In this document: positions 8,832 to 32,632 of the stretch, in pieces
How the letters are laid out: the number at the start of each line of letters is the position of its first letter
Position numbering within the stretch: the stretch's first letter is position 1
Origin: an uncultured Eubacteriales bacterium
GTDB lineage: Bacteria > Bacillota > Clostridia > Peptostreptococcales > Anaerovoracaceae
Assembly: GCA_900315485.1 (NCBI GenBank)
Contig: OMZI01000036.1
Location: 1 to 34,757, forward strand
Direction of reading: 5' to 3'
DNA length: 34,757 bases
Notes under the pieces: model-generated
Database searches by the model: none
What the model was told of the DNA's origin: nothing
What the model saw: the letters and a program-made list of their open reading frames with translations, nothing else
Position numbers and translations under genes: made by a program

Positions 8832-8875
8832 TAAATAAAAAACTCCTGTCCCAGAAATACTGCTGGGACAGGAGT
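8832..8875 (-). terminator. T-box regulated terminator
   Basis: ACTCCTGTCCCA and TGGGACAGGAGT form a perfect 12-bp stem followed by TTTTTTATTT on the minus strand. The 5' part overlaps the region that would form the T-box antiterminator. Confidence 0.93.
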
Positions 8876-9105
8876 ATAAATATCTCCTGCGGTGCCACCC
8901 GGCTTGACAGAGTCGCCTCTGCCCACTCACTGCGTACCAACATACGCATCATTTGTTAACGAAGTTTTCTCTCCGTCTCCCATACTCTCATGAGTCCATT
9001 CGGATCCGCCTCCGCATGCCGCGCTCTCACCATCCGCGGCTCGCTCATATGTAAGCATCGGAACCTACTCACTCTCATTCATAGGTTTGTTTGGTATTTA
9101 ATTTA
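8832..9105 (-). promoter_or_regulatory. Tryptophan T-box leader of trpB
   Basis: Read on the minus strand, the leader carries the T-box sequence GGGTGGCACCGCAGG (about 8886-8900), whose TGGC bulge matches a tRNA with discriminator G, as in tRNA-Trp. In the specifier region ATGAG (5' side) faces CTCAT, next to GAATGGA, which contains the Trp codon TGG (8998-8996). Uncharged tRNA-Trp binding would favour the antiterminator and allow trpB transcription. Confidence 0.93.
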
Positions 9106-9110
9106 GTCGT

Positions 9111-9139
9111 AATGTAGCACTATATTTGGGGCATGTCAA
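9111..9139 (-). promoter_or_regulatory. Sigma-A promoter of the trpB T-box transcript
   Basis: On the minus strand TTGACA (9139-9134), 17 bp, TACATT (9116-9111): near consensus. Start is expected near 9104, just before the T-box stem I. Confidence 0.8.
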
Positions 9140-9191
9140 TAAGAAAAATGTTATTTTTGTGATTATTCATATTTTATGCTCTACTATTGAG

Positions 9192-9200
9192 TGGTATACT
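9192..9200 (+). promoter_or_regulatory. Extended -10 promoter of the aromatic cluster
   Basis: TGGTATACT fits TGnTATAAT; the -35 region TTTTAT is weak. Start would be near 9207, giving a 33-base leader to the gene at 9240. It faces away from the T-box promoter. Confidence 0.5.
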
Positions 9201-9239
9201 TATTGCGTTCAACCAAAAACTAAGAAGCAGGGAAGATCT

Positions 9240-10241
9240 ATGATAGTAATACTCAGACACAATGTTACGGATGAAAAGCGCGATCAGCTGATCAATTGGT
9301 TCAAGTCGCAGGGCCTGGGCGTCGACGTGTCGAAGGGAGAGTATCAGACTATACTCGGCCTCATCGGCGATGTGCTAAGCCTCGACACCGACATGATCGA
9401 GAGCCTCGACATAGTGCAGGCTACTCGCAGGGTCACAGAGCCTTTCAAGCGCTGCAACCGCAAATTTCAGCCTGATGACACAATCGTTACTGTTGGAGGA
9501 GCGTCTATAGGCGGAGGCAACTTTGCCTTTATCGCGGGGCCTTCTTCTATAGAGAGCGAAGAACAGCTCCTGCAGGTGGCTGCCTCTGTTAAAGAGTCGG
9601 GCACCGACATACTTACCGGCGGGTCGATAAGCTCTAAGACGGCGAGACACAATCTTCAGAAAAAGAATCTTGCCGAGCTGGAGCATCTGAAGAAAGCGAA
9701 GCAAGATGTAGGCATGCCTGCCGGCAAGGAGCTCATTTCGGTAGAAGACATCCCGAATTATAAGGATCTGGATATCCTCATCATCGGTGAGCGCAATATG
9801 TGCAACTATCCGCTTCTCGCGGCTGCCGCGGAATCGGGCAAGACTATCATTCTCAAAAGATCCGTCTCGGCTACGTTGGAAGAACTCCTGATGTCTGCCG
9901 AATACATCATGGCGGGCGGAAATAAAGATATCATCCTCTGTGAGAGAGGACTTCGTACATTCACAAATGAGACTAAAGCCACGTTTGATATATCCGCGAT
10001 CCCTCTGCTCAAGGAGATGACGCATCTCCCTGTTATAGCGGATGTAAGTCGCAGCACAGGACTGAGCCGTCTCGTAAGGCCACTTTCACTGGCTGCATGC
10101 GCGGCAGGGGCAGACGGCTTGATGATAGACGTTCATAATGACCCGGGAAGCGCCAGACGTAACGGTGGTCAGGCCATTTCGACGGAGGCCTTCGGAACTT
10201 TGGCTCAGGAAGTGCGTAAACTAAGAGAGGCTATGAAATAA
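9240..10241 (+). CDS. DAHP synthase-like protein (AroF type I-beta) lacking metal-ligand residues
   Basis: A 333-aa protein with the layout of type I-beta DAHP synthases: an N-terminal ferredoxin-like regulatory domain (about 1-70), then a TIM barrel. Barrel landmarks IGERNMCNYPLL, IILCERGLRTF and THLPVIAD are clear. Key residues differ: GPCS is GPSS (Ser102), KPRTS reads SSKTA, DPSH is DVSR (Arg271), EVHP is DVHN (Asp297) and the DG of DGxQ is NG (Asn308). All four metal-ligand positions are thus altered, so normal catalysis is unlikely. An intact AroG-type enzyme lies at 16767. I infer a regulatory or changed role. The ATG at 9240 has AGGGA eight bases upstream; a longer open frame from 9126 lacks homology. 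It overlaps tyrA by one base. Confidence 0.85.
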   Translation: MIVILRHNVTDEKRDQLINWFKSQGLGVDVSKGEYQTILGLIGDVLSLDTDMIESLDIVQATRRVTEPFKRCNRKFQPDDTIVTVGGASIGGGNFAFIAGPSSIESEEQLLQVAASVKESGTDILTGGSISSKTARHNLQKKNLAELEHLKKAKQDVGMPAGKELISVEDIPNYKDLDILIIGERNMCNYPLLAAAAESGKTIILKRSVSATLEELLMSAEYIMAGGNKDIILCERGLRTFTNETKATFDISAIPLLKEMTHLPVIADVSRSTGLSRLVRPLSLAACAAGADGLMIDVHNDPGSARRNGGQAISTEAFGTLAQEVRKLREAMK

Positions 10242-11068
10242 TGACAGTAGGTGTTGTAGGACTCGGGCTTATAGGAGGCTCGATCGCGAAGGGCTATCAT
10301 GTGGCGGGGCACACCGTATACGCGTGGAACAGAACAGCAAGCACGCTTGGCTTTGCTCTCATAAGCGGTGATGTAGACGCTGAGCTTAATGAGAAAAACG
10401 TATCGGAGTGTGATCTGATCTTCGTATGCCTCTACCCTGAGGCTTCGATAGAATGGGTGAAGAATATGGCTCCGTACTTCGGAGAAAAGCCTTTGGTGAT
10501 GGATGCCTGCGGAACAAAACGCAACGTGTGCGAAGCCTGCTTCAAGCTGGCGGAGGAATACGGGTTCACATTTGTGGGCGGCCATCCAATGGGAGGCACC
10601 AAAGACAAGGGATACAAGTATTCAAAGGATGATATGTTCGTCGGCTGCCCAATGGTTATAGTCCCTCCGAGATATGACGATATAGAACTGTACGCAAGGA
10701 TCAAAGAACTGCTTGCTCCGCTCGGGTTTGGGCGATTCTCCATTACTACCGCTGAGGATCACGACAGCATGATCGCCTTTACATCACAGCTCTCGCACGT
10801 CATTGCCAGTTCATACATAAAGAGCCCTTCGGCAGAAAGACAGGGCGGATTCGCCGGAGGAACTTACAGAGACATGACTCGCGTGGCTTATCTGAACGCT
10901 CCGATGTGGTCCGAGATCTTCATCAGTAACAAGGATTGTCTTCTGGCTGAGATCGACTCCCTGATAGACAATATGAGCAAGTACCGAAAGGCTATCAGTG
11001 AAGAGAATGTGGACGAGCTTAGAGAACTTCTCGAAGAGGGATCCCGCAGAAAAGAAAAATTAGGCTGA
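10241..11068 (+). CDS. tyrA: Prephenate dehydrogenase
   Basis: A 275-aa NAD(P)-dependent enzyme that oxidatively decarboxylates prephenate to 4-hydroxyphenylpyruvate, the tyrosine precursor. The N-terminal Rossmann motif is GLGLIGGS (7-14), followed by GGHPMGGTKDKG and SQLSHVIASSY, the usual SQLPH segment with Pro changed to Ser. There is no C-terminal ACT domain, so the protein is of the short type. Its ATG overlaps the stop of the preceding gene (TAATG), implying coupled translation. The attenuator of the next operon segment follows the stop. Confidence 0.92.
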   Translation: MTVGVVGLGLIGGSIAKGYHVAGHTVYAWNRTASTLGFALISGDVDAELNEKNVSECDLIFVCLYPEASIEWVKNMAPYFGEKPLVMDACGTKRNVCEACFKLAEEYGFTFVGGHPMGGTKDKGYKYSKDDMFVGCPMVIVPPRYDDIELYARIKELLAPLGFGRFSITTAEDHDSMIAFTSQLSHVIASSYIKSPSAERQGGFAGGTYRDMTRVAYLNAPMWSEIFISNKDCLLAEIDSLIDNMSKYRKAISEENVDELRELLEEGSRRKEKLG

Positions 11069-11095
11069 TCAAGTATTGATAAGTGTTCAATTTGC

Positions 11096-11124
11096 TTGAC
11101 TTTAAGCCTGTATAGTGCTAAATT
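11096..11124 (+). promoter_or_regulatory. Promoter of the attenuated aromatic operon
   Basis: TTGACT, 17 bp, TAAATT. Start near 11131, about 27 bases ahead of the leader-peptide ribosome site. Genes from 11334 on could be transcribed from here independently of tyrA. Confidence 0.6.
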
Positions 11125-11167
11125 TCAGGCATTAAATTATCGGAAGTATCCGTCAACGGAGGATATT

Positions 11168-11239
11168 TTGAAAAAGACAGGGACAGTTAACGTATTTGGG
11201 TTTAAGGGCTATTTTGGAGGCTACTTTAAGGCCTTCTGA
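11168..11239 (+). CDS. Phe/Tyr-rich attenuator leader peptide
   Basis: A 23-codon reading frame starts with TTG at 11168, five bases after a perfect GGAGG (11158-11162), and stops at TGA 11239. The last fourteen residues include five Phe and two Tyr (FGFKGYFGGYFKAF). It has the size, codon content and position of leader peptides that sense charged tRNA-Phe and tRNA-Tyr, and mutually exclusive RNA stems follow it. It is too short for usual gene finders. Confidence 0.85.
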   Translation: MKKTGTVNVFGFKGYFGGYFKAF

Positions 11240-11311
11240 TTTTACTGTCCTTAGATCATATGATTAGGTTATCCAAGCCGGCTGTGTTCTAAAGGACGCA
11301 GCCGGTTTTTT
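11181..11311 (+). promoter_or_regulatory. Ribosome-mediated Phe/Tyr attenuator
   Basis: Segment 1 GGACAGT (11181-11187) pairs with segment 2 ACTGTCC (11244-11250), enclosing the aromatic codons. Segment 2 GTCCTTAGA (11247-11255) can instead pair with TCTAAAGGAC (11288-11297), which is part of the terminator hairpin. A ribosome stalled on Phe/Tyr codons would cover segment 1, free segment 2 and block termination; fast translation would allow it. This is the classic attenuation switch. Confidence 0.8.
11278..11311 (+). terminator. Attenuator terminator
   Basis: CCGGCTGTGTTC (11278-11289) pairs with GGACGCAGCCGG (11294-11305), with two G-T pairs, around TAAA and followed by six T. It lies 22 bases before the next start codon. 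Confidence 0.92.
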
Positions 11312-11333
11312 AGAAGTCAAAAAGAGGTGAACT

Positions 11334-12182
11334 ATGGAACTGAAAGATGCAAGGGAAACTATCAACAGGATAGACTCTGAGATGGCAAAACTGTTCGAGC
11401 AGAGAATGGACGCGGTCAGAGATGTCGCTGAATACAAGCGCGCTCGCGGCATCCCTGTTGAGGACAAGGAGAGAGAACAGAGCCTTATCGAGAACATGTC
11501 CGGAGAGATCAAAAGCGAGGACGTCAAACCGTTTTACGTCAGTTTCCTGCAGAGTACCATGAACATAAGCAAGAACTGGCAACACAGCCTCATAAACGGT
11601 ATCAAGATAGCCTGCTCCGAAGGGAAATATTCCGAGGATAAGCAGGCGGCTGAGAAAATATTCCCTAGTGAGGATATCGTGACTTATGAAAGCTATGCTG
11701 ACGCGTATAAAGCTGTCGAAGAAGGTGAGTGCGAGATCGCTGTATTGCCTCTTGAAAACAGTGACAGAGGAGATGTCGGTAAGGTTTATGACCTGCTGTA
11801 CGAAGGGACTCTCCACGTCAACAGCGTAAGGGCCGTCGAGACCGAAGGAAGTACTACCAGATACGTTGTGCTCTCAAGAGCTGCAAGCGAACCTGATACC
11901 ACAAAGGAGACAGAGTTCCTTATGGTGATGTTTACCGTGAAGGACGAAGTAGGCGGTCTGGCCAAGGCTATAAACGTCATCAGCGCTTATGGCTACAATA
12001 TGCATGGCCTCAGATCCAGACCGATCAAGGATGTTCCTTGGAATTACTATTTCTACGTTGAGCTCGAAGGAAAGAGCAGCGCAGACAGCGAGGAGAGAAT
12101 AGTCAGAGGCCTGAGCGCGGCTTGTCTTTCAGTCAAGATCGCAGGTCGTCTGACCGATGACACCTTCAGCACAGGGAGGTAA
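11334..12182 (+). CDS. Chorismate mutase with truncated prephenate dehydratase-like and ACT domains
   Basis: A 282-aa P-protein-like fusion. Residues 1-85 are an AroQ chorismate mutase (INRIDSEMAKLF, EYKRARGIPVEDKEREQ), converting chorismate to prephenate. Residues about 90-180 resemble the first lobe of prephenate dehydratase (SEGKYSE, AVLPLENSDRGDVGKVYDLL) but jump straight to TTRYVVLSR, so about 80-90 residues, the second lobe, are missing. An ACT domain follows (195-270, LRSRP). Full P-proteins have about 360 aa. Dehydratase activity is unlikely; the intact enzyme lies at 17795. The ACT domain could bind Phe and regulate the mutase. The ATG follows AAAGAGGTG and the attenuator. Confidence 0.85.
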   Translation: MELKDARETINRIDSEMAKLFEQRMDAVRDVAEYKRARGIPVEDKEREQSLIENMSGEIKSEDVKPFYVSFLQSTMNISKNWQHSLINGIKIACSEGKYSEDKQAAEKIFPSEDIVTYESYADAYKAVEEGECEIAVLPLENSDRGDVGKVYDLLYEGTLHVNSVRAVETEGSTTRYVVLSRAASEPDTTKETEFLMVMFTVKDEVGGLAKAINVISAYGYNMHGLRSRPIKDVPWNYYFYVELEGKSSADSEERIVRGLSAACLSVKIAGRLTDDTFSTGR

Positions 12183-12185
12183 GCT

Positions 12186-13193
12186 ATGGTACTGACCATA
12201 TCACCGGGCGGAAAAGAATATGACGTGACCGTCGAAGCCGGCTGCCTGAACAGAGCATCTGAACTGTTCGATCTCGGCAGAAAATGCCTGGTCGTGACCG
12301 ACGATGGAGTGCCGGGGAAGTATGCTGAGAAGATCGTCGCCCAATGTAAAGAACCGGTCCTTGTGACTCTGCATCAGGGTGAAGAATCCAAGAGCATGAA
12401 AAACTTGGAGAAACTTCTGACTGTGATGCTGAATCACAGTTTTACGAGGGGCGATTGCGCGGTTGCGGTTGGAGGCGGTATGCCGGGTGATCTTGCCGGA
12501 TTTGCTGCTGCGACTTATATGAGGGGCATCGATTTTTACAATGTACCTACGACTTTGCTCTCGCAGGCAGACAGCTCTATCGGAGGAAAGACAGCAGTCG
12601 ATCTCGGTGGAGTCAAAAATATCGTTGGCGCTTTCCATCAGCCGAGCGGCGTGCTGATAGATACAGACACATTAGAGACTTTGAGCGCAAGGCAACGAGC
12701 TGCCGGACTGGCCGAGATAATCAAATCAGGGCTTATAGCTGATGCAGATCTTTTCAGTTACATAGAAGAAAACATTGCAGGCGGGCTCGATATGGGGCGC
12801 ATTATTGAAGAGGCGCTTCAGGTAAAGAAAAAAGTCGTTGAGGAAGATGAGCGCGAAAGCGGACTCAGGAGGATACTCAACTTTGGTCACACCATAGGGC
12901 ATGGCATCGAGAGCGTGACAGGATTACTTCATGGTGAGTGCGTGGCTACAGGCATGATACCGATGTGCTCGCCGGAAGTCAGAGAAAGACTTGTCCCTGT
13001 GCTTGAAAGCGCGGGACTTCCGGTACAGGCTGAGTGCGATCCTGAGGCAGTGTTCGAGGCTGTGACACACGACAAAAAAGCAGCCGGCGGAATAATAAAG
13101 ACAGTATATGTCCCTGAGCCCGGCAAGGCGGAGATAATAGAGATGGGGCCTGAGGATCTCAGGATCAGGATAAACAGTATTTGTCATATATAG
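12186..13193 (+). CDS. aroB: 3-dehydroquinate synthase
   Basis: A 335-aa NAD- and metal-dependent enzyme that cyclises DAHP to 3-dehydroquinate, step two of the shikimate pathway. The NAD-binding GGGMPGDLAGFAA, the PTTLLSQADSSIGGKTAVD segment and the metal-site motifs AEIIKSG, FGHTIGHGIE and LHGEC are all present. Length is near the usual 340-360. The gene starts three bases after the chorismate mutase stop, with GGGAGG upstream of the ATG. Confidence 0.95.
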   Translation: MVLTISPGGKEYDVTVEAGCLNRASELFDLGRKCLVVTDDGVPGKYAEKIVAQCKEPVLVTLHQGEESKSMKNLEKLLTVMLNHSFTRGDCAVAVGGGMPGDLAGFAAATYMRGIDFYNVPTTLLSQADSSIGGKTAVDLGGVKNIVGAFHQPSGVLIDTDTLETLSARQRAAGLAEIIKSGLIADADLFSYIEENIAGGLDMGRIIEEALQVKKKVVEEDERESGLRRILNFGHTIGHGIESVTGLLHGECVATGMIPMCSPEVRERLVPVLESAGLPVQAECDPEAVFEAVTHDKKAAGGIIKTVYVPEPGKAEIIEMGPEDLRIRINSICHI

Positions 13194-13202
13194 AGGGTAG
13201 AT

Positions 13203-14303
13203 ATGAAGAATACATTTGGCACAAGTGTTGCGGTAACTATATTTGGAGAGAGCCACGGAGCTGCTGTGGGAGCAGTGGTCGATGGGCTTGCTCCCGGCAT
13301 CAAGATAGATGAGGACTTTATCAGAACGCGCCTTGAACTCAGAAAGCCATACGGCAGCATCTCAACACCTCGTCGAGAGAAGGATGATTTTCAGATCGTC
13401 AGCGGAGTGTTCGAGGGCAAGACGACAGGGACACCGGTCTGCATATTGATCCCGAATACATCGCAGAACAGCAAGGATTATGAGGCAGACAGACCTCTTG
13501 CCAGACCGGGCCACGCGGACTACACCGCTTACGTCAAATACCATGGCCACGAGGACTACAGAGGCGGAGGACATTTCTCAGGCAGAGTAACGGCTGCGCT
13601 GGTAGCTGCCGGAGCGATATGCCTTTCTGCGCTTTCTGCTAAAGGCATAGAGATAGGGACTCATATATCGCGCCTCGGAGGTATAAGTGACAGTGAGTTC
13701 AGCACAGATGAGGCTGAACTGGTATCCGAGATCAAGGCTCTTAACGGCAAGCGCTTTGCGGTGCTCGATGAACAAAAGGCAGAGACGATGCAGGAAGTGA
13801 TAAAAGAAGCTGCCGCAGACGGAGACAGCATAGGCGGCGTTCTTGAAACAGCTGTGACCGGATTGCCTGCCGGCGTTGGGGAGCCGTGGTTTGACACTCT
13901 TGAGGGTGTGCTGTCACACGCTTTATTCTCGATCCCGGGGATAAAGGGGGTGCAGTTTGGCGGTGGCTTTGATCTTGTTGACGCAAGAGGCAGCGAGTAC
14001 AATGATGCGTTCCGCATGGAAAGCGGCAGAGTCGTATCCAAGACCAATAACAATGGAGGGATCAACGGAGGCATCTCAAATGGCATGCCGATCCTGTTCC
14101 GCTGCGCGGTAAAGCCGACTCCTTCGATACACATCGCTCAGGAGACTGTCGATTTTGTCAAAAAAGAAGACGCTAAGATAGAGACGGGCGGAAGACATGA
14201 TCCTGCCATAATTCACAGGGCCAGGGCTGTAGTTGATTCGGTTGCTGCTTTGGCGCTCATCGATCAGCTGGCGCTGAGATACGGAACAGACTGGCTGGCA
14301 TAG
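13203..14303 (+). CDS. aroC: Chorismate synthase
   Basis: A 366-aa FMN-dependent lyase that converts EPSP to chorismate, the last common step. Family motifs FGESHGAAVG, RPGHADYT, RGGGHFSGRVTAALVAAGA and, near the C-terminus, GRHDPAIIHRA are seen. The ATG lies nine bases after the aroB stop, with GAGGGTAG upstream. It needs reduced FMN; no flavin reductase is encoded within the protein. Confidence 0.96.
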   Translation: MKNTFGTSVAVTIFGESHGAAVGAVVDGLAPGIKIDEDFIRTRLELRKPYGSISTPRREKDDFQIVSGVFEGKTTGTPVCILIPNTSQNSKDYEADRPLARPGHADYTAYVKYHGHEDYRGGGHFSGRVTAALVAAGAICLSALSAKGIEIGTHISRLGGISDSEFSTDEAELVSEIKALNGKRFAVLDEQKAETMQEVIKEAAADGDSIGGVLETAVTGLPAGVGEPWFDTLEGVLSHALFSIPGIKGVQFGGGFDLVDARGSEYNDAFRMESGRVVSKTNNNGGINGGISNGMPILFRCAVKPTPSIHIAQETVDFVKKEDAKIETGGRHDPAIIHRARAVVDSVAALALIDQLALRYGTDWLA

Positions 14304-14324
14304 TAAAGGATAAGGAAACAGGAT

Positions 14325-15566
14325 ATGAAATGCGGACTGATAGGCGAGAAACTGGGGCACAGTTTTTCAAAGGAGATCCATCAGAAGCTGGGTGATTATG
14401 AATATGACCTTATCGAACTGGCTCCTGACGAGCTGGAGGGCTTTATTCTGTCCGGCGATTTTGACGGGCTCAATGTGACGATCCCCTATAAACAGGCCGT
14501 GATGGGATATCTTGATGAGATAAGTGATCTGGCCCGCGAAGCCGGAGCGGTAAATACCGTAGTCAATAAAGATGGCAAGCTTGCCGGATACAACACGGAC
14601 TGCGGTGGCATGAAGATGCTGATCGAAAGGATGGGGATCGATCTTAAGGGAAAAAAGGCGTTCATAGCAGGTTCGGGCGGGACGAGCCGCACAGCAGCGG
14701 CTGTTTGCAAGAGCCTTGGAGCGTCAGAAGTGGTGCGAGCGAGCCGAAGCGGCAGAAACGGGGCCGTCACTTATGAAGAGGCTTACAGGGTCTGCGGCGA
14801 CGCGGCTCTTCTGATCAATACGACGCCTGCCGGGATGTACCCCGATACAGACAGCATGCCTTTTGACATCAGCCGTTTTGATCGTCCCGAAGGCGTGCTT
14901 GATGTGGTATACAACCCGCTGAATACACGTCTGATACAGGACGCGAGATCAAAAGGGATACGCGCCGAAAACGGGCTCTATATGCTTGTAGGACAGGCAG
15001 TTTTAGCATCGAGTCTGTTTATCGGTAGTGAGGCAAGTGAGTCTCAAGATATAACAGAAAGAATATATGCAGATCTGCTTAAGGAGAAGCGCAATATCGT
15101 ACTGACAGGTATGCCGGGAAGCGGCAAATCCACGCTTGGCAAGATGCTTGCAGAAAAGCTTGGCAGGGAAATGGTCGAGACAGATGAAATCATCTCAAAG
15201 GAAGCAGGCACATCCATTAAGGAGATCTTTGCAAACCACGGCGAGCAGCACTTCCGCGATCTCGAAAGCGAGGTCATAAAACGATTCTCGGTGAAGAGCG
15301 GACTTGTGATCTCTACAGGAGGCGGAGCCATACTTCGCGAAGAAAACATAAGTGCGCTTCGCCTAAACGGAGTTATCGTGTTCATCGACAGGCCTCTTGA
15401 CCAACTCAAGGCAACAGACAGCAGGCCGCTTTCAGACGATAGGGAAAAACTCGAAAGGCTCTATAAGGAGCGCTATGAGATATACAAGAATACAGCGGAT
15501 ATAGTCGTAAAGACCGGCGGCGCAAAGAAGGATTCGGCGAAGAAATTGTGGGAGACGCTGAAATGA
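14325..15566 (+). CDS. Bifunctional shikimate dehydrogenase / shikimate kinase
   Basis: A 413-aa fusion of AroE and AroK. Residues 1-245 are shikimate dehydrogenase: SFSKEIH substrate loop, catalytic Lys56 in VTIPYK, Asp92 in NTDCGG, NADP loop AGSGGTSRTAA and the C-terminal GLYMLVGQA. Residues 255-413 are shikimate kinase: Walker A GMPGSGKST (262-270), ETDEII, shikimate-binding HFRDLE, GGG at 332-334, and the lid DSRPL. The protein thus makes shikimate and phosphorylates it, two consecutive steps. AroE usually has about 270-290 aa and AroK 165-170, so both halves are near full size. The last four bases overlap aroA. Confidence 0.93.
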   Translation: MKCGLIGEKLGHSFSKEIHQKLGDYEYDLIELAPDELEGFILSGDFDGLNVTIPYKQAVMGYLDEISDLAREAGAVNTVVNKDGKLAGYNTDCGGMKMLIERMGIDLKGKKAFIAGSGGTSRTAAAVCKSLGASEVVRASRSGRNGAVTYEEAYRVCGDAALLINTTPAGMYPDTDSMPFDISRFDRPEGVLDVVYNPLNTRLIQDARSKGIRAENGLYMLVGQAVLASSLFIGSEASESQDITERIYADLLKEKRNIVLTGMPGSGKSTLGKMLAEKLGREMVETDEIISKEAGTSIKEIFANHGEQHFRDLESEVIKRFSVKSGLVISTGGGAILREENISALRLNGVIVFIDRPLDQLKATDSRPLSDDREKLERLYKERYEIYKNTADIVVKTGGAKKDSAKKLWETLK

Positions 15567-16762
15567 AAGTAACGATAAACCCACAAGGCCATATCACCGG
15601 CACAGTGAAAGCGCCGCCTTCAAAGAGCATGGCTCACAGGGCACTTATATGCGCGGGACTGGCAGAAGGCAAAAGCGTTATCGATAATATAGCAGCTTCC
15701 GAAGACATACTCGCGACTATAGACTGCCTCAGGGCGCTGGGCGCTGAGATAAACTATGATACTGAGGCCATGCGCGCTGAGGTGAAAGGGACGGATCCCG
15801 CGTCAAGAGGGGAAGCGTCACTTCATTGCAGAGAAAGCGGAAGCACTTTGAGATTCATGTTGCCGCTATGCGCGCTCTCAGATGATCCTGCAGCACTGAC
15901 CGGAAGCAGGAGACTTATGGAAAGGCCTCTGACGATCTATGAGGATATATTCAGGTCTGAAGGTATAGACCTTGACAGATCCGGATCCTCGATACGAGTG
16001 AAGGGAAGATTGACCGGCGGAGACTTCGGTATGCCGGGAGATATAAGCAGCCAGTTTGTGAGTGGCCTATTATTCACGCTCCCGCTCTGTAAAGAGGACG
16101 GCCTGATTAGACTTGAAGGAAAAATCGAAAGCAGGCCATACATAGATATGACCATAAAGGCACTCAATGATTTCGGCATTGAGGTCGGATGGAAGAATGA
16201 GACGGATCTGGCTGTTCCGGGATCACAGAGGTATAAAGCTAACGACACGACCATCGAGGGAGACTGGTCTAACGCGGCCAACCTATTAGCTCTCGGGCTT
16301 GAAGTGACCGGAGTGGACCCGGATAGCTTACAGGGCGATAGGGTATGCCGCGAATACTTTGGTCAGCTTGACGAAGGCAGGGCTGAACTGGATATCGCCG
16401 ATTGCCCTGACCTTGGGCCGGTGCTTATGGCATATGCGGCCCTTAACCACGGTGCGACCCTGCTCGGTACGCGAAGGCTGAGATTCAAAGAATCTGACAG
16501 AGGCAACGTTATGCGGGAAGAACTCGCTAAATGCGGTGTTGATGTCAAGATGTCTGAGGATTCGATAACAGTAGGATGCGGAGTGAAGGCGCCGAGTCAA
16601 ATGCTGTCAGGACACAATGATCACCGCATCGTTATGGCGCTGGCGGCCATCTGCGCAAGGACAGGGGGAAGCATCGAAGGCGCCGAAGCTGTCAGCAAAA
16701 GCTTCCCGGATTATTTTGACAAACTTGAGGGTCTCGGCATAGAGATCAGAAAGGAGCAATAA
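15563..16762 (+). CDS. aroA: 5-enolpyruvylshikimate-3-phosphate synthase
   Basis: A 399-aa enzyme that adds enolpyruvate from PEP to shikimate-3-phosphate. Motifs are APPSKSMAHRAL (substrate-binding SKS), RESGSTLRFMLPL, GDISSQFVSGLLFTLPL, RLRFKESDR and GHNDHRIVMALA, all in the expected order. The frame is open from 15548, but homology and the GGGAG eight bases upstream favour the ATG at 15563, which overlaps the preceding stop (ATGA) and suggests translational coupling. It is slightly shorter than the common 420-430 aa. Confidence 0.94.
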   Translation: MKVTINPQGHITGTVKAPPSKSMAHRALICAGLAEGKSVIDNIAASEDILATIDCLRALGAEINYDTEAMRAEVKGTDPASRGEASLHCRESGSTLRFMLPLCALSDDPAALTGSRRLMERPLTIYEDIFRSEGIDLDRSGSSIRVKGRLTGGDFGMPGDISSQFVSGLLFTLPLCKEDGLIRLEGKIESRPYIDMTIKALNDFGIEVGWKNETDLAVPGSQRYKANDTTIEGDWSNAANLLALGLEVTGVDPDSLQGDRVCREYFGQLDEGRAELDIADCPDLGPVLMAYAALNHGATLLGTRRLRFKESDRGNVMREELAKCGVDVKMSEDSITVGCGVKAPSQMLSGHNDHRIVMALAAICARTGGSIEGAEAVSKSFPDYFDKLEGLGIEIRKEQ

Positions 16763-16766
16763 CCTG

Positions 16767-17795
16767 ATGAATATGGACTTTGTACGTAAACTTCCTCTGC
16801 CATCTGAGGTCAAGGAGATGTTCCCGCTGACCGCCGCGGAGAAAGAGATAGTGAAGCGAAAGACTGAAGAGCTTAAGGACATATTCTCGCATAAGAGTGA
16901 CAAGCTCGTTCTGATCATAGGGCCGTGCTCTGCCGATAACGGGGACAGCGTGCTTGACTACATCTCCAGACTTGCGGAGGTGCAGGAAAAAGTCAGCGAA
17001 AAGATAATGATAGTCCCTCGCGTTTATACCAATAAGCCAAGGACTACCGGTCAGGGGTACAAGGGATTCGTGCATCAGCCTGATCCTGATGAGAGCCCCG
17101 ATCTTTTCAAGGGCATCATGTTTACGCGCGAGATGCATATGAGAGCCGTGAAAGTGGCATGCTCGGTGTGCGCAGATGAGCTTTTGTACCCTGAGAACTA
17201 CAAGTATATAGATGATCTTCTCGGCTATGTAGCGATTGGAGCGAGAAGCGTCGAGGATCAACAGCACAGGATGACAGCGAGCGGCGCTGATTGCCCGGTA
17301 GGCATGAAGAACCCTACGAGCGGAGACCTTTCGGTCATGATGAATGCGATCACAGCAGCCCAAAGCGAGCACGACTTTATATACAGGGGCTGGGAAGGCC
17401 ATTCGCACGGCAATCCATACGCGCACGCTATACTGAGAGGCTATGTAAATACGCAGGGAGTCTCATACCCGAACTACCATTACGAAACGCTTCTGCATCT
17501 CTCTGAGCTCTATGCAAAGAGCGATCTGGTCAATCCGGGCGTCATAATCGACTGCAACCACGCCAACAGCGGCAAGGATCCGATGCAGCAGCCGAGGATC
17601 ATGAAGGATGTCCTTCTCTCGTGCAAATACAACGAAGACATAAATGATCTCGTAAGAGGTTTCATGGTCGAGAGCTATATCGAGGACGGCAATCAGCCTA
17701 TAGGCGGCGGCGTATACGGCAAGAGCATAACGGACGCCTGTCTCGGATGGGAAAAGACTGAGAAGATGATCTATGAGATAGCGGAGATATTGTGA
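16767..17795 (+). CDS. aroG: 3-deoxy-7-phosphoheptulonate synthase, AroG type (I-alpha)
   Basis: A 342-aa DAHP synthase of the AroG/F/H class that condenses PEP and erythrose-4-phosphate, the entry to the pathway. All catalytic features are intact: IIGPCSADNG (metal Cys), NKPRTT (PEP and E4P binding), CNHANSGK (metal His), MVESYIEDGNQP (metal Glu). This contrasts with the degenerate type I-beta copy at 9240. An AGGAG lies ten bases before the ATG. The overlap with pheA (TGATG) suggests coupled translation. The symbol follows E. coli usage for the family; feedback specificity cannot be assigned. Confidence 0.93.
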   Translation: MNMDFVRKLPLPSEVKEMFPLTAAEKEIVKRKTEELKDIFSHKSDKLVLIIGPCSADNGDSVLDYISRLAEVQEKVSEKIMIVPRVYTNKPRTTGQGYKGFVHQPDPDESPDLFKGIMFTREMHMRAVKVACSVCADELLYPENYKYIDDLLGYVAIGARSVEDQQHRMTASGADCPVGMKNPTSGDLSVMMNAITAAQSEHDFIYRGWEGHSHGNPYAHAILRGYVNTQGVSYPNYHYETLLHLSELYAKSDLVNPGVIIDCNHANSGKDPMQQPRIMKDVLLSCKYNEDINDLVRGFMVESYIEDGNQPIGGGVYGKSITDACLGWEKTEKMIYEIAEIL

Positions 17796-18622
17796 TGATT
17801 ATAGGATACCAGGGCGTAAGCGGAGCATTCAGCGAGACCGCTGTAAGGAATCTCTTCGGAGATAAGGAATATGAGGACAGAGGATACAGCGACTTCATCT
17901 CGCTGCTCGGAGATGTTGAGAATGGGGTCGTAGACTATGCTGTCATACCTGTGGAGAACACGACTACAGGCATAATCGCGAGAACATATGACCACTTACA
18001 GAGTTACCGTATACACGCGGTGGGAGAGACAGTGGTCCCGATCAGGGAATGTCTGATCGCAAATCCGGGCTCAAAGATAGAGGATATCAGGGAAGTATAC
18101 AGCCACCCGGAAGCGCTTTCGCAGTGTCAGGAACTGTTCAAAGAATACCCGAACATGACTCCTCATGCCCACGAGGATACTGCGCTGAGCGTCAGCTACA
18201 TTAGGGACACCAAAGATCCTACCAAGGCCGCGCTCGCAAGCGAACTTGCGGCAGAGACTTACGGCATGGAGATCCTGCTTCCTAACGTCCAGGACAACAA
18301 CGTCAACATGACAAGATTCCTCTGCGTTACGGCAAGGGATGAACAGCCAAAGGACGCCAATAAGATCAGCCTCAGGATGGTGACATCGCATACTCCGGGA
18401 GCTCTTTTCAACGCCCTCGGGATATTCGCCTCGAAAAACATCAACGTGCTCAAACTTGAGAGCAGGCCTATCTTCGGCAGGGTATTCGAGTATTGCTTCT
18501 ATCTGGATTTTGCCGGCAACCTCAAAGACCCCGACGTGGCGGAGGCTCTAAGGAGGCTCGAGTACGATTGCACTGAACTGAACATTTTCGGAAATTATAA
18601 GGCTGCAGAGGAATACATGTGA
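17795..18622 (+). CDS. pheA: Prephenate dehydratase with ACT domain
   Basis: A 275-aa monofunctional enzyme that turns prephenate into phenylpyruvate. The full two-lobe catalytic domain is present: GYQGVSGAFSE, VIPVENTTTGIIARTYD, YSHPEALSQC, and the catalytic NMTRFLCV (Thr-Arg-Phe). The ACT domain (about 190-265) carries LESRPIFGRVFEYCFYLDF, typical of Phe feedback binding. No chorismate mutase domain is attached; that activity is at 11334. I take the ATG at 17795, with GGAG eight bases upstream, although a GTG one codon earlier is also possible. Confidence 0.93.
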   Translation: MIIGYQGVSGAFSETAVRNLFGDKEYEDRGYSDFISLLGDVENGVVDYAVIPVENTTTGIIARTYDHLQSYRIHAVGETVVPIRECLIANPGSKIEDIREVYSHPEALSQCQELFKEYPNMTPHAHEDTALSVSYIRDTKDPTKAALASELAAETYGMEILLPNVQDNNVNMTRFLCVTARDEQPKDANKISLRMVTSHTPGALFNALGIFASKNINVLKLESRPIFGRVFEYCFYLDFAGNLKDPDVAEALRRLEYDCTELNIFGNYKAAEEYM

Positions 18623-21221: not shown

Positions 21222-22619
21222 ATGCTTTATGATATAGTGCCTGATAATTTCTTCAGCCCGCTTTCGTCACCAGGGAGAACGGTGTACTGGGAGTGTATAA
21301 AGAGGCTGTTTGCAATCACAAGCAGACAGCTTTCTTTTGGTGTGGAGAGAGATGTTCTTGTCGATGATTTGGATTTTTATTTTGAATTCGATTTCGCGGC
21401 GGATATCCGTGACCTCAGCGATATGCAGCAGGGAGAGCAGCCGGGTTCATCGAGCAGAGACAAAGCAAATCAGATGCTGCGCCGGCTAGAAAGCTGCGGA
21501 TGGATATATACAGAAGTGGATTACAGCTATGTCCAAAGAGTAAATTTCAGGGATTATGCTGTACAGATCATCCGCACACTGAAGCAGATAGAGACGGCAA
21601 AGACCACGGAGTATCAGGGCTACATCTATACGATCTACAATCTGTCCCGAGCCAAAGGAAATCCGGGTCTGGCTCTAACGCAGATCGTTGAGAATACTGA
21701 TTTACTTATCACCGGTCTCAAGAGCCTCAATGCGAATATCAAGAAATACATCGATGATCTGACAAAGCACAGCACGGTATCGGAGATTCTCGATGCGCTT
21801 CTCAACGATTATTATACGAATGTGGTCGATAAGGCTTACCACAGGCTGATGACCTCTGATAATGTGTCGAAGTTCAGACCTGAAATAATCAGCAATCTCG
21901 AAGCGAACTCGCAGAACGGCAGATACCTGAATTCCGCGGCTAGGGAGCTGGCGGAAATGATGGAACAGTCCGAAGAAGAAGCAAAACAGACAGCGCTTAA
22001 TATGCTGCATAATGTGATCGAAGCATTCCGGCAGATGGATGACATCCTCGAGCAGATCAATGACAAGAATTCCAGATATCAGAAAGCCGCGGTGGGAAGA
22101 GCGAGATTCCTTCTGTCATCAGCGGATGATATCCGCGGGCAACTGAAAAGCATCATCTGCACGCTTAACGATGCTTTCAACGAGGATGGGTATACCGATT
22201 ACAATACGGTATATGAGCTTGCAGAGACGGATAGTCTGATCCGGCTGTTCTCGTGGGATTATCTGGATATGGATTCTCTGTATGCACCGAGACAGGGCAG
22301 GAGCGAATTCATACCGCAGGATATGGAGTCTCATCGGGTAAGTGAGGCTGAAAGACGCAGGCGCAGAGCGGAGTTTGAAGAAAGAATCAAAAACGTTCTC
22401 AGTGCGCCGAGAATAAACGAGTATGTAATGGAGCTGCTTGGCGCGGACGATGCGCTCCTCGCGTCGGAACTGCCTCTCGGTGAAGGCGATACATTCATTA
22501 AGCTGATATATATAAGACTGTATGGAAGTCGCAAGCTGATGGGCTATACCGTGGAGCCGGGAAGGATAATCGAGAAAGACGGCTTCAGGTTCCGCGATTT
22601 CATAATACGCAGGAGGTAG
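21222..22619 (+). CDS. jetA: Wadjet defence protein JetA (MukF/kleisin-like)
   Basis: A 465-aa protein with the opening LYDIVPDNFFSPLSSPGRTVYW typical of Firmicute JetA (DUF5716-type, from memory). JetA is the kleisin-like subunit that bridges the SMC-like JetC heads. It is rich in charged helices with coiled-coil potential around 225-310. It is the first of four contiguous jet genes in the order A-B-C-D, which senses and cleaves small circular DNA such as plasmids. Only a weak GCAGGTAG precedes the ATG, so translation may be coupled to the preceding gene. jetB follows six bases after the stop. Confidence 0.85.
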   Translation: MLYDIVPDNFFSPLSSPGRTVYWECIKRLFAITSRQLSFGVERDVLVDDLDFYFEFDFAADIRDLSDMQQGEQPGSSSRDKANQMLRRLESCGWIYTEVDYSYVQRVNFRDYAVQIIRTLKQIETAKTTEYQGYIYTIYNLSRAKGNPGLALTQIVENTDLLITGLKSLNANIKKYIDDLTKHSTVSEILDALLNDYYTNVVDKAYHRLMTSDNVSKFRPEIISNLEANSQNGRYLNSAARELAEMMEQSEEEAKQTALNMLHNVIEAFRQMDDILEQINDKNSRYQKAAVGRARFLLSSADDIRGQLKSIICTLNDAFNEDGYTDYNTVYELAETDSLIRLFSWDYLDMDSLYAPRQGRSEFIPQDMESHRVSEAERRRRRAEFEERIKNVLSAPRINEYVMELLGADDALLASELPLGEGDTFIKLIYIRLYGSRKLMGYTVEPGRIIEKDGFRFRDFIIRRR

Positions 22620-22625
22620 TAAAAA

Positions 22626-23291
22626 ATGGATCTCTTCGAGGGTATGATCCAGAAGGATCAGGATGAATTCAGGAAGATCATGAACCGTCTGATGAGCACG
22701 GGTTTCATTCTTCGCAGGAAAGAACAGACAAAGAGTGATTACTATTTCATTCTGAGACACCGCAGCGTGTTTGAGAGATATCTTGATGTGCTCAGCTATC
22801 AGATAGATATCAACGAGGAATACGGCGTGATCCAGCTGCTGAACCGTGAAAATTACAACCATCTGCAGCTTACAATGCATGAGTCGATCATCCTGCTGAT
22901 ACTGCGCATATTGTTCGATGAGAAAAAGCGCGAGCTGTCTCTGACAGATGTAGTGGTCAATATGGGCGATATCCAGGAGAAATACCTGTCGATGCAGATA
23001 CGAAGCGAGCAGATCGGCAAGACCGTGATGGGGAATGCCCTGAAAAAATTCAGGAGATACAGCCTCGTTGAATTGCTGGACGGGAACAATATCCGTGAAG
23101 AATCCAGGGTGCTGATCTATGACTCCATCATGATGGCTGTTAGAGTTGATGACATTAAACGGGTGAGCGAGCTTCTGGAGAGATACCGTAAAGACGGGAA
23201 GATCACAGAGGGTGAGGACAACAATACCTGTGAAGGTGATGATACTGAGATATATGAAGCCGACGCCGAGCTTATGGAGGAGGAGCTGTAA
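22626..23291 (+). CDS. jetB: Wadjet defence protein JetB (MukE-like)
   Basis: A 221-aa protein, the MukE-like winged-helix subunit of the Wadjet complex. It starts MDLFEGMIQKDQDEFRKIMN and holds helices typical of a kleisin-associated wHTH protein, then a strongly acidic C-terminal tail (about 200-221). The ATG follows AGGAGG closely. The stop overlaps the jetC start by one base (TAATG). Its family (DUF6063- or DUF4194-like) is not settled by eye; its identity rests largely on place between jetA and the SMC gene. Confidence 0.8.
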   Translation: MDLFEGMIQKDQDEFRKIMNRLMSTGFILRRKEQTKSDYYFILRHRSVFERYLDVLSYQIDINEEYGVIQLLNRENYNHLQLTMHESIILLILRILFDEKKRELSLTDVVVNMGDIQEKYLSMQIRSEQIGKTVMGNALKKFRRYSLVELLDGNNIREESRVLIYDSIMMAVRVDDIKRVSELLERYRKDGKITEGEDNNTCEGDDTEIYEADAELMEEEL

Positions 23292-26200
23292 TGAAATCCA
23301 TGACGCGTGTCAGACTGATCAACTGGCACAGATTTGAGAATGAGACAATAGAATTTGCCGAGTCAGTCCTCCTGTCCGGTGAGAACGGTGCAGGTAAATC
23401 CACGATTCTGGACGCTATACAGTTCGTTCTGACCTGTACCACTGCGAATTTCAACAAGGCGGCGCATGAAAAAGGCGACCGTACTCTGGGAAGCTATGTA
23501 AGATGCAAGACCGGCAAGGAAGACAGACCATACGAGAGAAGCGGCAATATCTCTGCGCATATCGCGCTTGAATTTTTTGACGAAGAGAAAAGCCAGTATT
23601 TCATTACCGGAGCTGTGATGGATTCCTCAAATGAAGAAAAAGAGCCCGCAGTAAGATGGTATATCGCAGAGAACAGGGAGCTTGATGACGATCTGTTTTT
23701 CTCCGGGAATAAGGTCAAGAGCATATCCCAGTTCTTGTCGACCAACAAGGGCATCAGGGAAGATAAAACCAGGACCGGTGCGCGCAAAATGATAGCCAAC
23801 AGGTTCGGAAGGCTGGATGAAAAGAAATTCTGCTCTCTGATACCAAAAGCTCTGGCGTTCAGACCTATACACAACATCAAGGAATTCGTGTATACATATG
23901 TGCTTGATGAAAAGAAAGTCAATATAGATGCTCTCCGGGAGAATGTCCGCACCTTCCAGGAGTTTGAACGAATGCTCAGGGATGTGCGCCGCAGGATAGA
24001 GGAACTCGAGGAGATACTTGCCCGGAAAGCCGAGGTGGATAATTACGTACGTATAGACGGCCGTCACGAGTACTATCTGGCGAGGGTCGAGCAGGATATT
24101 CTGATTGAAGATTATGATGGTGCAAAGAACACGATCAGGCAGGCGAAGGGTAGCATCAGACAGCTGAAGAGCGAGGAGGCTAAACTTGATAAACTCCTTG
24201 CAAGTAAACAAGAGAGTATTATACAGCTGCGTCTTGAGCTTGAGAACGATGAGAAATTCCAGGCCAAGCTGGAGCTTGAGAAGCGCAGGCGCAATCTCGA
24301 GGATATGCTGGAAGCTGATAAGCTAAGAGTCAGCGAACTCTATGATGCTGCAAGCGAAGCTGCTTCAGGTGCAGAATCGCTTATTGCAGAACTGAAATAC
24401 GAAGCTGATACTCATGCCGACGGAGAGGTGCTCCGTATGCTTGCGGATTATGTCAAGGCACTTAAGGGCTTATCAGCTCTGGTTGATCTGACAATAGTAC
24501 ATATCGGACTTCAGGCGGTACAGGATTATAAGAAAGAGCACTATGATACCTATAACCGCAGACTCGCTGAATGCAGCCTGAGCATCGGAACTCTGGAGAA
24601 CGATCTCAAAGATCTGAACAGCCGCATCCGGATGCTTGAAGACAAAAAGCTGGTCTATCGCCCTGAGGTGGAAATGCTGCAGTCGGGAATCAGAGAGCAG
24701 CTGAGGAATGTCGGCAGGACCGGAGAAGTCAGGATATTATGCGAACTGCTGGAGATCACAAAGCCTGCGTGGCGCAATGCGGTCGAGGGCTATCTGAATA
24801 CGCAGAGATTCTACCTGATCACGGAACCGGAGGACTTCGATCTGGCGCTCAGTGTCTATGACAGATTAAGGCAGCAGAAGAAAATCTACGGAGTAGGTCT
24901 TGTCAACACAGCAAAGCTTTCGGAGTACGATGAAGCGCCGGAAGGAAGTCTCGCGGAATGCGTGACATCGAAGAATATCTGGGCCAGACGCTATGCCAAT
25001 ATGGTGCTTGGCAAAGTTCACTGTGCCGGAAGCTATCAGGAGCTAAAGCAGTATCCGGTCGCGATTACCCGGCAGTGCATGAGGTATCAGAATCATGTCG
25101 CTTCTGCGATCTCTCCGAAGATATACGAAAAGCCTTATATCGGAGCCGGAGCCGTTGCGGTGCAGCTCGAGCAGGCAAGGGAAGAGAAGAGAAAACTCGA
25201 GATCAGCATTGAGAACCACAGGAGCGAGCAGGCTCATCTTGACAGGATGACGAAGTGCCTGAATGCTGATATTGACAGAGAGGTCAGGTATAATCTTGCT
25301 TCACTGGAAGCCATGCGCGGCCATGAGACAGAGATGGAAAACTGCGACAGAGAGCTTGCGGAGATCAAAGCAAGCAGGACGATGATCCAGAAGCAGGACA
25401 GGCTCGAAGCTCTGGAAAGCGAGAAGAGTGAGCTGAGCAGCAGACTGAAGGAGACCAGCAGAAATATTGGAAATCTTGAAAATGTGATACGTAATACTGA
25501 AGAACAGATGGACAGATTGTTTTATAAGCAGATAAGGCAGAAGGAAATCGTGACTGAACTGTATAACCGGCTCGGAGATGATGCTGCCGACTGTGAAAAA
25601 GACTATATAAAGCAGACTTCGGAACATGACTATGAGAAGTATCGCCAGAATTATGAATCCGCGAGGAAGGGCAACCACACCAGACGGGAGAAGGCTGAAA
25701 GGATGATGGCAGAGGCGATGAGCAGATACAAATCCGCACATGACTTCGGAGCTGCAGATTCGATGGAGGGCTTCCCTGAATTCAACGCCGAATATGACAA
25801 ACTGAAGAACTCGCAGCTGCTCGAATACGAGGAGAAGGTGAGAAGTGCCCGGGAGAAGGCAGAGCAGGAATTCCGCGAACAGTTCCTGGCGCGTCTTCAG
25901 GAGAACATCAAACAGGCACAGAATGAATTCAAAAGCCTTAACAGGGCGCTCGCCGACATACATTTCAGCAATGAAAGATATGAATTCAGGCACGAGCCGA
26001 GAAAACATCTCAGGAAGTTTTACGATATGATCATGGACGATTTCAATATCCTGGGCGGTGAGAGCCTGTTCAACAGCTCATTCAATGAGACACACAGGGA
26101 GGCCATCGATGAGCTGTTCGAGAAGTTGGCTCTGGATGATGAAAGCAGTGAAAAGACACTTGAAGAATATACAGACTATCGTACATATATGGATTACGAC

Positions 26201-26563
26201 ATCCGCATCACATTTGATGATGGAAGCTATATGTTTTATTCCAAGGTCAGTCGTGAAAAGAGCGGGGGCGAGACTCAGACTCCATTCTATATCACGATCG
26301 CAGCATCGTTTATGCAGCTTTACCGCAGCGGCATAGGTGGAGACTCCATAGGGCTCGTTATGATGGATGAAGCATTCAATAATATGGATGATAGCCGCAT
26401 GTCGGGAGTCCTGTCATTTATGACAGGATCCAATCTGCAGACAATCATTGCCGCTCCGCCGGAGAAGATACAGTACATAGCGCCTTCGGTCGAAAGCGTA
26501 CTGCTGGTGCTCGCGGATGGAGATATGAGCTATGTAGAGGAATTCGACAGGCTGAAGGCATAA
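23291..26563 (+). CDS. jetC: Wadjet defence protein JetC (SMC/MukB-like ATPase)
   Basis: A 1090-aa SMC-family ATPase, the motor that extrudes DNA loops. Walker A is GENGAGKST at 30-38, near the N-terminus. Two long coiled-coil arms (about 235-345 and 640-900) flank a central hinge-like region (about 440-620). The C-terminal head has the signature KSGGETQTPF near 990 and Walker B GLVMMDEAFNNMDD near 1020. The length suits JetC and is well below the 1480 aa of MukB. GGAGGAG lies just upstream of the ATG. All catalytic motifs are intact, so the system looks functional. Confidence 0.92.
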   Translation: MKSMTRVRLINWHRFENETIEFAESVLLSGENGAGKSTILDAIQFVLTCTTANFNKAAHEKGDRTLGSYVRCKTGKEDRPYERSGNISAHIALEFFDEEKSQYFITGAVMDSSNEEKEPAVRWYIAENRELDDDLFFSGNKVKSISQFLSTNKGIREDKTRTGARKMIANRFGRLDEKKFCSLIPKALAFRPIHNIKEFVYTYVLDEKKVNIDALRENVRTFQEFERMLRDVRRRIEELEEILARKAEVDNYVRIDGRHEYYLARVEQDILIEDYDGAKNTIRQAKGSIRQLKSEEAKLDKLLASKQESIIQLRLELENDEKFQAKLELEKRRRNLEDMLEADKLRVSELYDAASEAASGAESLIAELKYEADTHADGEVLRMLADYVKALKGLSALVDLTIVHIGLQAVQDYKKEHYDTYNRRLAECSLSIGTLENDLKDLNSRIRMLEDKKLVYRPEVEMLQSGIREQLRNVGRTGEVRILCELLEITKPAWRNAVEGYLNTQRFYLITEPEDFDLALSVYDRLRQQKKIYGVGLVNTAKLSEYDEAPEGSLAECVTSKNIWARRYANMVLGKVHCAGSYQELKQYPVAITRQCMRYQNHVASAISPKIYEKPYIGAGAVAVQLEQAREEKRKLEISIENHRSEQAHLDRMTKCLNADIDREVRYNLASLEAMRGHETEMENCDRELAEIKASRTMIQKQDRLEALESEKSELSSRLKETSRNIGNLENVIRNTEEQMDRLFYKQIRQKEIVTELYNRLGDDAADCEKDYIKQTSEHDYEKYRQNYESARKGNHTRREKAERMMAEAMSRYKSAHDFGAADSMEGFPEFNAEYDKLKNSQLLEYEEKVRSAREKAEQEFREQFLARLQENIKQAQNEFKSLNRALADIHFSNERYEFRHEPRKHLRKFYDMIMDDFNILGGESLFNSSFNETHREAIDELFEKLALDDESSEKTLEEYTDYRTYMDYDIRITFDDGSYMFYSKVSREKSGGETQTPFYITIAASFMQLYRSGIGGDSIGLVMMDEAFNNMDDSRMSGVLSFMTGSNLQTIIAAPPEKIQYIAPSVESVLLVLADGDMSYVEEFDRLKA

Positions 26564-26592
26564 GAGCAATGTGGCAGATCCGAGAATAGAAT

Positions 26593-32509: not shown

Positions 32510-32537
32510 TTGACATTTCTTGATTATTTGCTATACT
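32510..32537 (+). promoter_or_regulatory. Sigma-A promoter of the DUF3800 RNA/gene unit
   Basis: TTGACA, 16 bp, TATACT directly after the previous stop. Start near 32545, at the first bases of the structured RNA. Confidence 0.8.
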
Positions 32538-32547
32538 AATCATAGTA

Positions 32548-32609
32548 CTTGGGCTGGTCGCTGACCTGGGTCCAACCTACTCGGCGTGGGAAACTCCCCG
32601 CCATTTTTT
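32548..32609 (+). ncRNA. Structured RNA upstream of a DUF3800 gene (DUF3800-type motif)
   Basis: The leader has a first hairpin region (GGTCGCTGACC, 32556-32566) and a second stem GGCG-T-GGGA / TCCC-CGCC (32583-32602) that closes on AAC and is followed by ATTTTTT. Comparative work has described conserved DUF3800 RNA motifs upstream of such genes, and the position, size and two-hairpin layout here agree; I match it by layout from memory, not by a covariance search. The second stem plus T-run may act as a terminator that regulates the gene. Confidence 0.65.
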
Positions 32610-32632
32610 ATACCTGAAAAGGAGCAAGAATC

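Follow-up and report, generated by a model that had tools for sequence, protein, structure and literature searches.

The window, as we call the whole 34,757-nt stretch of DNA analysed, contains an aromatic amino acid operon whose genes encode, in order, a homologue of DAHP synthase (here pseudo-DAHPS), TyrA, a protein joining chorismate mutase, part of a prephenate dehydratase and an ACT domain, AroB, AroC, AroE-AroK, AroA, AroG, PheA and AroD. The pseudo-DAHPS gene (positions 9240-10241, plus strand) encodes 333 amino acids in a frame that is intact, as the initial annotation stated. Pfam and NCBIfam profiles assign its product to the type I DAHP synthases with an FXD (FL) domain, with PF18152 (FXD/FL) covering residues 1-67 (E = 2.3e-18) and PF00793 (DAHP synthetase I barrel) residues 87-332 (E = 1.1e-46). 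We treat residues 1-78 (9240-9473, plus strand) as the ferredoxin-like (FL) sensor domain and the remainder (9474-10238, plus strand) as the TIM-barrel domain. The nearest solved relative is the type I-beta DAHP synthase of Thermotoga maritima, which aligns over the full length (E = 2.8e-77). In an AlphaFold2 model (mean pLDDT 91.5), the strands and helices of the FL fold are seen, and the top fold matches are T. maritima enzymes (1rzm, 1vr6) and a chimera bearing the T. maritima FL. The two Pfam matches and the full-length homology bear out the fold landmarks and N-terminal ferredoxin-like domain that had been read from the sequence.

The window protein shares this FL-plus-barrel architecture with the T. 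maritima enzyme and differs from it at the active site. Alignment places serine, arginine, aspartate and asparagine at the four metal positions (C102S, H272R, E298D and D309N in T. maritima numbering, or CHED to SRDN), exactly the replacements first proposed for this gene. The codons concerned, all on the plus strand, are those of Ser102 (9543-9545, for Cys102), Arg271 (10050-10052, for His272), Asp297 (10128-10130, for Glu298) and Asn308 (10161-10163, for Asp309). The KPRTS motif, whose loss had also been claimed, reads SSKTA, and two residues of the PEP/E4P site are gone (R126 to T, K131 to S), while R186, K207 and R237 are retained; we take all five residues and the motif to have roles in the DAHP synthase active site. 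NCBIfam model NF006421 nevertheless accepts the protein (342.1 bits, cut-off 335), so the gene can be misread as a DAHP synthase. Within the FL domain, S31 is retained in all seven distinct pseudo-DAHPS sequences of the genus and H29 is replaced by aspartate. Both are presumably tyrosine-site residues of the T. maritima enzyme, and because H29 is replaced though S31 is kept, the ligand of this FL may differ from that of T. maritima. Aspartate at position 29 was considered as a hallmark of the pseudoenzyme and rejected, since it occurs in 13 of 168 aligned rows, seven pseudo-DAHPS and six others.

The tyrA gene begins within the end of the pseudo-DAHPS gene, the stop and start codons overlapping in TAATG (10239-10243, plus strand). 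Its product, the proposed partner of pseudo-DAHPS, is a prephenate dehydrogenase of 275 amino acids (10241-11068, plus strand) with no match to an ACT domain. The seventh gene after pseudo-DAHPS, as correctly counted in the initial annotation, encodes an intact-looking AroG-type (I-alpha) DAHP synthase (16767-17795, plus strand), the presumed catalytic supplier of the pathway. In alignments to solved I-alpha enzymes, its N-terminal extension is shorter by at least 7 residues and its beta-hairpin by about 5, and the first two alignments listed show an insertion of 6 residues shortly afterwards. We take the extension and hairpin to form the allosteric site of E. coli AroG and other I-alpha enzymes. 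No regulatory RNA was found upstream of the pseudo-DAHPS gene on the same strand.

Several other features were recorded, in the window and at related loci. The product of 11334-12182 combines chorismate mutase, part of a prephenate dehydratase (only profile positions 8-72 of 181 in Pfam) and an ACT domain, in an operon that also encodes an intact-looking PheA; like pseudo-DAHPS, it keeps a regulatory domain alongside a broken catalytic one. Relatives consisting of a half-deleted dehydratase and ACT domain, with and without chorismate mutase, occur at L126 (3717-4586) and L127 (3128-3733), downstream of a gene that by eye resembles an amino-acid dehydrogenase. In 16 genomes of the genus the best match is a half-deleted dehydratase-ACT form about 200 residues long, and a chorismate synthase match is found in none of those 16. 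A T-box leader on the minus strand (8861-9091), upstream of trpB, scores 71.7 bits, below its curated threshold of 93. Between the window (8987-17974) and L058 on contig C27 of G035, a genome classed as a different species, the aro operon is 99.96% identical, but identity falls abruptly to 85% in the 6 kb next to it; this suggests recent exchange or a chimeric assembly. Beyond the operon lie a Wadjet-type JetABCD set (21222-27990) and a region (29525-33325) that starts with a 994-aa protein having PrimPol and helicase-type PADLOC matches, followed by a DUF3800-XI RNA match (32550-32598) and an open reading frame without a PADLOC match.

Searching 349 genomes of the family with pseudo-DAHPS gave matches in 255. 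G009, G035 and G016 (on contig C131) carry the window gene without a single difference over 999 bases. C131 is 99.2% identical to the aro region of the window, and because G016 carries another aro operon (contig C21), C131 may be a contaminant there. A search for orthologues with the same substitutions, as suggested in the initial annotation, yielded seven distinct degenerate orthologues in the genus, all with intact frames and a shared loss of the metal site. Six of the seven read SRDN, with all four ligands changed, and the seventh, in G020, reads S, H, N, S, with three of four changed. KPRTS is altered in all seven, R186 and R237 are kept in all seven, K207 is kept in six, and the substitution A185E is common to all. 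By contrast, CHED is intact in each of the 20 best matches outside the genus (50-53% identity), as it is in a more distant copy (45%) in G005, a member of the same genus. Records with pseudo-DAHPS are metagenome-assembled genomes named uncultured Clostridiales bacterium (RUG series, which we take to be rumen genomes); G020 is Mogibacterium sp. RGIG5700 from sheep duodenum, and NCBI taxonomy places Mogibacterium within the Anaerovoracaceae.

We calculated dN/dS for pseudo-DAHPS by the Nei-Gojobori method, with measurable dS in four of eight pairs. Whole-gene values in these four are 0.051-0.056, and are rough because dS is 1.04 to 2.09. In the same pairs dN is 0.011-0.031 for the FL domain and 0.073-0.140 for the barrel, and no other operon gene compared has a whole-gene dN as low as that of FL; part of this low FL dN may not reflect selection on the protein, because FL dS is also lower than barrel dS. 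Purifying selection, proposed as a check on the gene's status, is thus borne out, and is tighter on FL than on the barrel. The alternative raised at the same time, that orthologues with intact ligands would reveal a copy in simple decay, finds no backing in the genus, where the orthologues are degenerate and dN/dS is about 0.05. Loss of catalytic residues together with purifying selection in several species supports classing the window protein as a pseudoenzyme, presumably inactive.

The contrast between the two domains is also seen in protein identity. FL is more conserved than the barrel in all 21 pairs of pseudo-DAHPS, in 138 of 140 comparisons of pseudo-DAHPS to intact enzymes and in 4 of 666 pairs among 37 intact enzymes, the pairs in each set not being independent. 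These comparisons left out the three identical copies of the window gene and five of 42 intact rows whose FL start is incomplete (L023, L026, L028-L030). With TyrA identity as the yardstick (74-89%), FL identity is 86-95% and barrel identity 59-81% in 15 pseudo-DAHPS pairs, against 78-91% and 84-96%, respectively, in 12 intact pairs of the same TyrA range. The FL domain has thus kept its old constraint, as in working enzymes, while the barrel, still constrained, has relaxed. This internal contrast between FL and barrel is the robust selection result. As a control, FL was compared with the other 78-codon windows of the operon in seven pairs (258 to 389 windows per pair); those as slow as FL or slower numbered 16 of 330, 5 of 379, 15 of 389, 0 of 378, 1 of 260, 31 of 347 and 9 of 258, mostly in AroG and TyrA among those listed. 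FL is therefore among the slowest stretches of the operon, and the control rules out that it is the single slowest.

To place these losses in a wider context, we read the ligand positions of 167 sequences beside T. maritima (147 from the family and 20 from other families of the order), the sequences fetched representing a subset of the 255 genomes with a match. CHED is present in 156, ten are degenerate, and one is truncated before the last ligand. Seven of the degenerate ten belong to the window's genus; the others come from a second genus of the family (G072, CFED; G073, PQED; G074, ANED). In a phylogenetic tree, the two groups fall in separate supported clades (100/100 and 99/98), the seven sitting on a long stem branch. 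The substituted ligands are thus more than a chance pattern; judged from this tree, the second clade is a case of degradation independent of the window's genus. There too FL is more conserved than the barrel among degenerate members (3 of 3 pairs, with the FL of G072 cut to 40 codons by a contig end), compared with 1 of 78 intact pairs of that genus. In the comparisons listed between its degenerate and intact members, FL is less conserved than the barrel.

Degeneration coincides with the presence of AroG. All ten genomes with a degenerate I-beta sequence have an AroG match. Among the 147 family sequences, 10 of the 20 from AroG-bearing genomes are degenerate, compared with 0 of 127 from genomes without AroG (Fisher p = 1.9e-10, a value that ignores kinship and in which the origins number two). 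The other ten of the 20 are still CHED. Beyond the 147, AroG-bearing genomes with an I-beta match are G261, G273, G345 and G271, of which G271 was read and is likewise CHED; ligand loss is thus not immediate after AroG. Many of these genomes are incomplete metagenome assemblies, in which single absences are weak evidence. Two further loci were recorded in this survey. L291 (G096), in a genome without an AroG match, has intact ligands and two in-frame stop codons, which suggest decay or sequencing error. At L282 (G732), AroG is followed by TyrA, with an intact-looking I-beta DAHP synthase about 1.2 kb beyond a PheA-like gene, possibly an intermediate stage of replacement.

In all ten degenerate cases, tyrA lies directly downstream. 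The stop/start overlap of the window recurs at the five orthologous junctions listed (six genus junctions in all), and about 59 bases separate the two genes in G073. The pair stays together even where its surroundings differ. In G008 it is oriented divergently from the aro genes beside it, and in G020 it lies at the end of the cluster, so the description of this gene as heading the aromatic operon holds for the window and fails in these two genomes. The arrangement is older than these losses: within the fetched stretch, a DAHP synthase lies upstream of tyrA at all 26 best-matching family TyrA loci examined (L224-L249) and at 20 of 25 TyrA loci from a search around Lachnospiraceae strain LC2019 (L195-L219), the remaining five having AroG upstream in two and neither in three. 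Because DAHP synthase-tyrA adjacency is ancestral, the linkage alone could be inherited.

AroG is present without pseudo-DAHPS or this tyrA in G028, a 77% complete genome, and in the C21 operon of G016, although G016 also holds pseudo-DAHPS on the possible contaminant C131. We examined for TyrA 20 of the 24 AroG-bearing genomes without an I-beta match. In these 20 family genomes, a distant TyrA (28-33% identity) is present in 14 and none in four; the remaining two, G063 and G215, carry TyrA of this kind (42-44%) but no FL match. TyrA of this kind also occurs apparently without FL in G537, G557 and G497. A strict requirement of this TyrA for FL is ruled out by G215 and G063.

A scan of genome contigs found five loci (L178-L182) that match only residues 1-75 or 1-80 of pseudo-DAHPS. 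At these loci, in Lachnospiraceae strain LC2019 and four metagenome-assembled genomes, all clostridial, FL runs directly into a prephenate dehydrogenase. By Pfam, FXD, PDH_N and PDH_C lie in one chain in the four full-length fusions; the remaining frame (L180) stops early. Each of the five genomes matches AroG, two of them partially, and matches pseudo-DAHPS nowhere but in the FL segment, with no I-beta barrel found. The position of H29 is occupied by glutamine in the fusion. Modelled with AlphaFold2, the fusion has two folded domains and, between them, a low-confidence linker (residues 71-84); the fold matches of the model are prephenate dehydrogenases, and it gives no indication of how FL would act on TyrA. 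A TyrA tree separates the fusions, the window's genus and the second degenerate group into three clades, each strongly supported. The fusions cluster with TyrA genes retrieved in the LC2019 search, including two with an intact DAHP synthase upstream (L196, L197) and one with none (L195).

Together, these findings suggest that a conserved sensor, always found beside tyrA, now controls TyrA. We consider it probable, though by no means assured, that pseudo-DAHPS is catalytically dead and kept as a regulatory (allosteric) subunit of TyrA, the choice of partner following from the linkage to tyrA and the natural FL-TyrA fusions. From these gene comparisons we infer the absence of activity, the order of events, a physical complex, the identity of its ligand and the direction of its effect. 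The lineage would have gained an I-alpha AroG, which would have made DAHP synthesis independent of the I-beta barrel. The barrel would then have shed its metal site and become a relaxed scaffold, with FL, the amino-acid sensor of the parent enzyme, held under its old constraint because it was also acting on TyrA. By binding tyrosine (or phenylalanine) and passing the signal to TyrA within the complex, FL may place under feedback control a TyrA that itself gave no ACT match.

The initial annotation envisaged a pseudoenzyme kept as an allosteric partner. The pseudoenzyme part agrees with the shared losses among orthologues, the purifying selection and the better conservation of FL than of the barrel; the implied partner, AroG, is not favoured. 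Pseudo-DAHPS would in that case join the I-alpha enzyme in a mixed assembly and bring it under feedback control, which we regard as unlikely. AroG is indeed present in every genome found with a degenerate I-beta protein, and the window AroG lacks part of the extension and hairpin described above. However, the places where AroG is found and the pseudoenzyme is not, namely G028 and the C21 operon of G016, also lack this TyrA; FL is fused to TyrA rather than to AroG; and in G072-G074 AroG sits on another contig. We know of no mixed I-alpha/I-beta DAHP synthase assembly.

New chemistry, the other possibility raised at the outset, would make the protein a metal-free aldolase or give it another PEP- or phosphate-binding activity. 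The uniform retention of the phosphate-site residues R186 and R237, the near-uniform retention of K207 and the shared A185E would fit such an activity, and an arginine at the histidine position could conceivably replace the metal. However, the ligand positions differ within one clade (SRDN, SHNS) and again in the second (CFED, PQED, ANED), R126 and K131 are lost, and relaxation has affected the barrel rather than FL. With no common replacement set that could form a shared new active site, we judge new chemistry very unlikely. Still less probable is that the gene persists solely to lead translation into the overlapping tyrA start, whatever protein it encodes: the stop/start overlaps at the genus junctions fit this idea, but selection at the amino-acid level is strong, FL is in frame in the fusions and the genes of G073 are separated. 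Least probable of all is a decaying gene awaiting loss, as the faster evolution of the barrel than in intact enzymes might suggest, given that none of the ten degenerate frames has a stop codon, dN/dS is low and the seven genus sequences form one supported clade on a long stem.

The proposed regulation of TyrA by pseudo-DAHPS has partial parallels in known systems. The chimera 4grs, which places the T. maritima FL on another barrel and reportedly responds to tyrosine, shows FL to be a movable module; it is engineered and still has a DAHP synthase barrel, whereas here FL is joined to TyrA in nature. In Mycobacterium tuberculosis, chorismate mutase is insensitive by itself, and Tyr/Phe feedback appears only once it has bound DAHP synthase (PMC4281200), so the lending of control by a DAHP synthase to another pathway enzyme is already known. 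That synthase is of type II (PMC5526877), and the pair consists of an active DAHP synthase and chorismate mutase, as opposed to a putatively dead type I-beta protein and TyrA in a proposed complex. A 2005 TyrA survey describes fusions of TyrA to ACT, REG and other domains (PMC1173090). These resemble the present fusions in adding a regulatory domain to TyrA and differ in that the domain is C-terminal there and an N-terminal DAHP synthase-type FL here. The same survey describes a Shewanella oneidensis aroQ-pheA with an attached aroA-I-beta pseudogene (PMC1173090), another I-beta remnant on a pathway enzyme; it is called a pseudogene there, whereas the frames here are open and under selection in two clades. 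Archaeal TyrA can be fused to chorismate mutase/prephenate dehydratase, and FL is not mentioned in the part of that report available (PMC11237513). Literature searches, with subscription journals mostly outside full-text reach, found no DAHP synthase (DAH7PS) pseudoenzyme; by title, nothing on a dead DAHP synthase appeared in the literature on shikimate pathway pseudoenzymes and no FL-TyrA fusion in searches on TyrA and DAHP synthase fusions. The present case would be one of cross-enzyme allostery exercised by a pseudoenzyme.

More tentatively, and with somewhat less confidence than in the regulatory role itself, we propose that the I-beta DAHP synthase of these Clostridia may have had two jobs: DAHP synthesis, and control of TyrA by FL in a complex of the first and last enzymes. 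Takeover of catalysis by AroG could then expose the second job, in the form of a dead DAHP synthase (with at least two origins) or of a barrel-deleted FL-TyrA fusion. If so, the sensor of a first enzyme would regulate a terminal-branch enzyme, a mode of tyrosine synthesis control, and these lineages would offer a repeated natural experiment in the change from enzyme to regulator. Because the fused form occurs in a named strain, Lachnospiraceae LC2019, the idea is open to study on a single recombinant protein.
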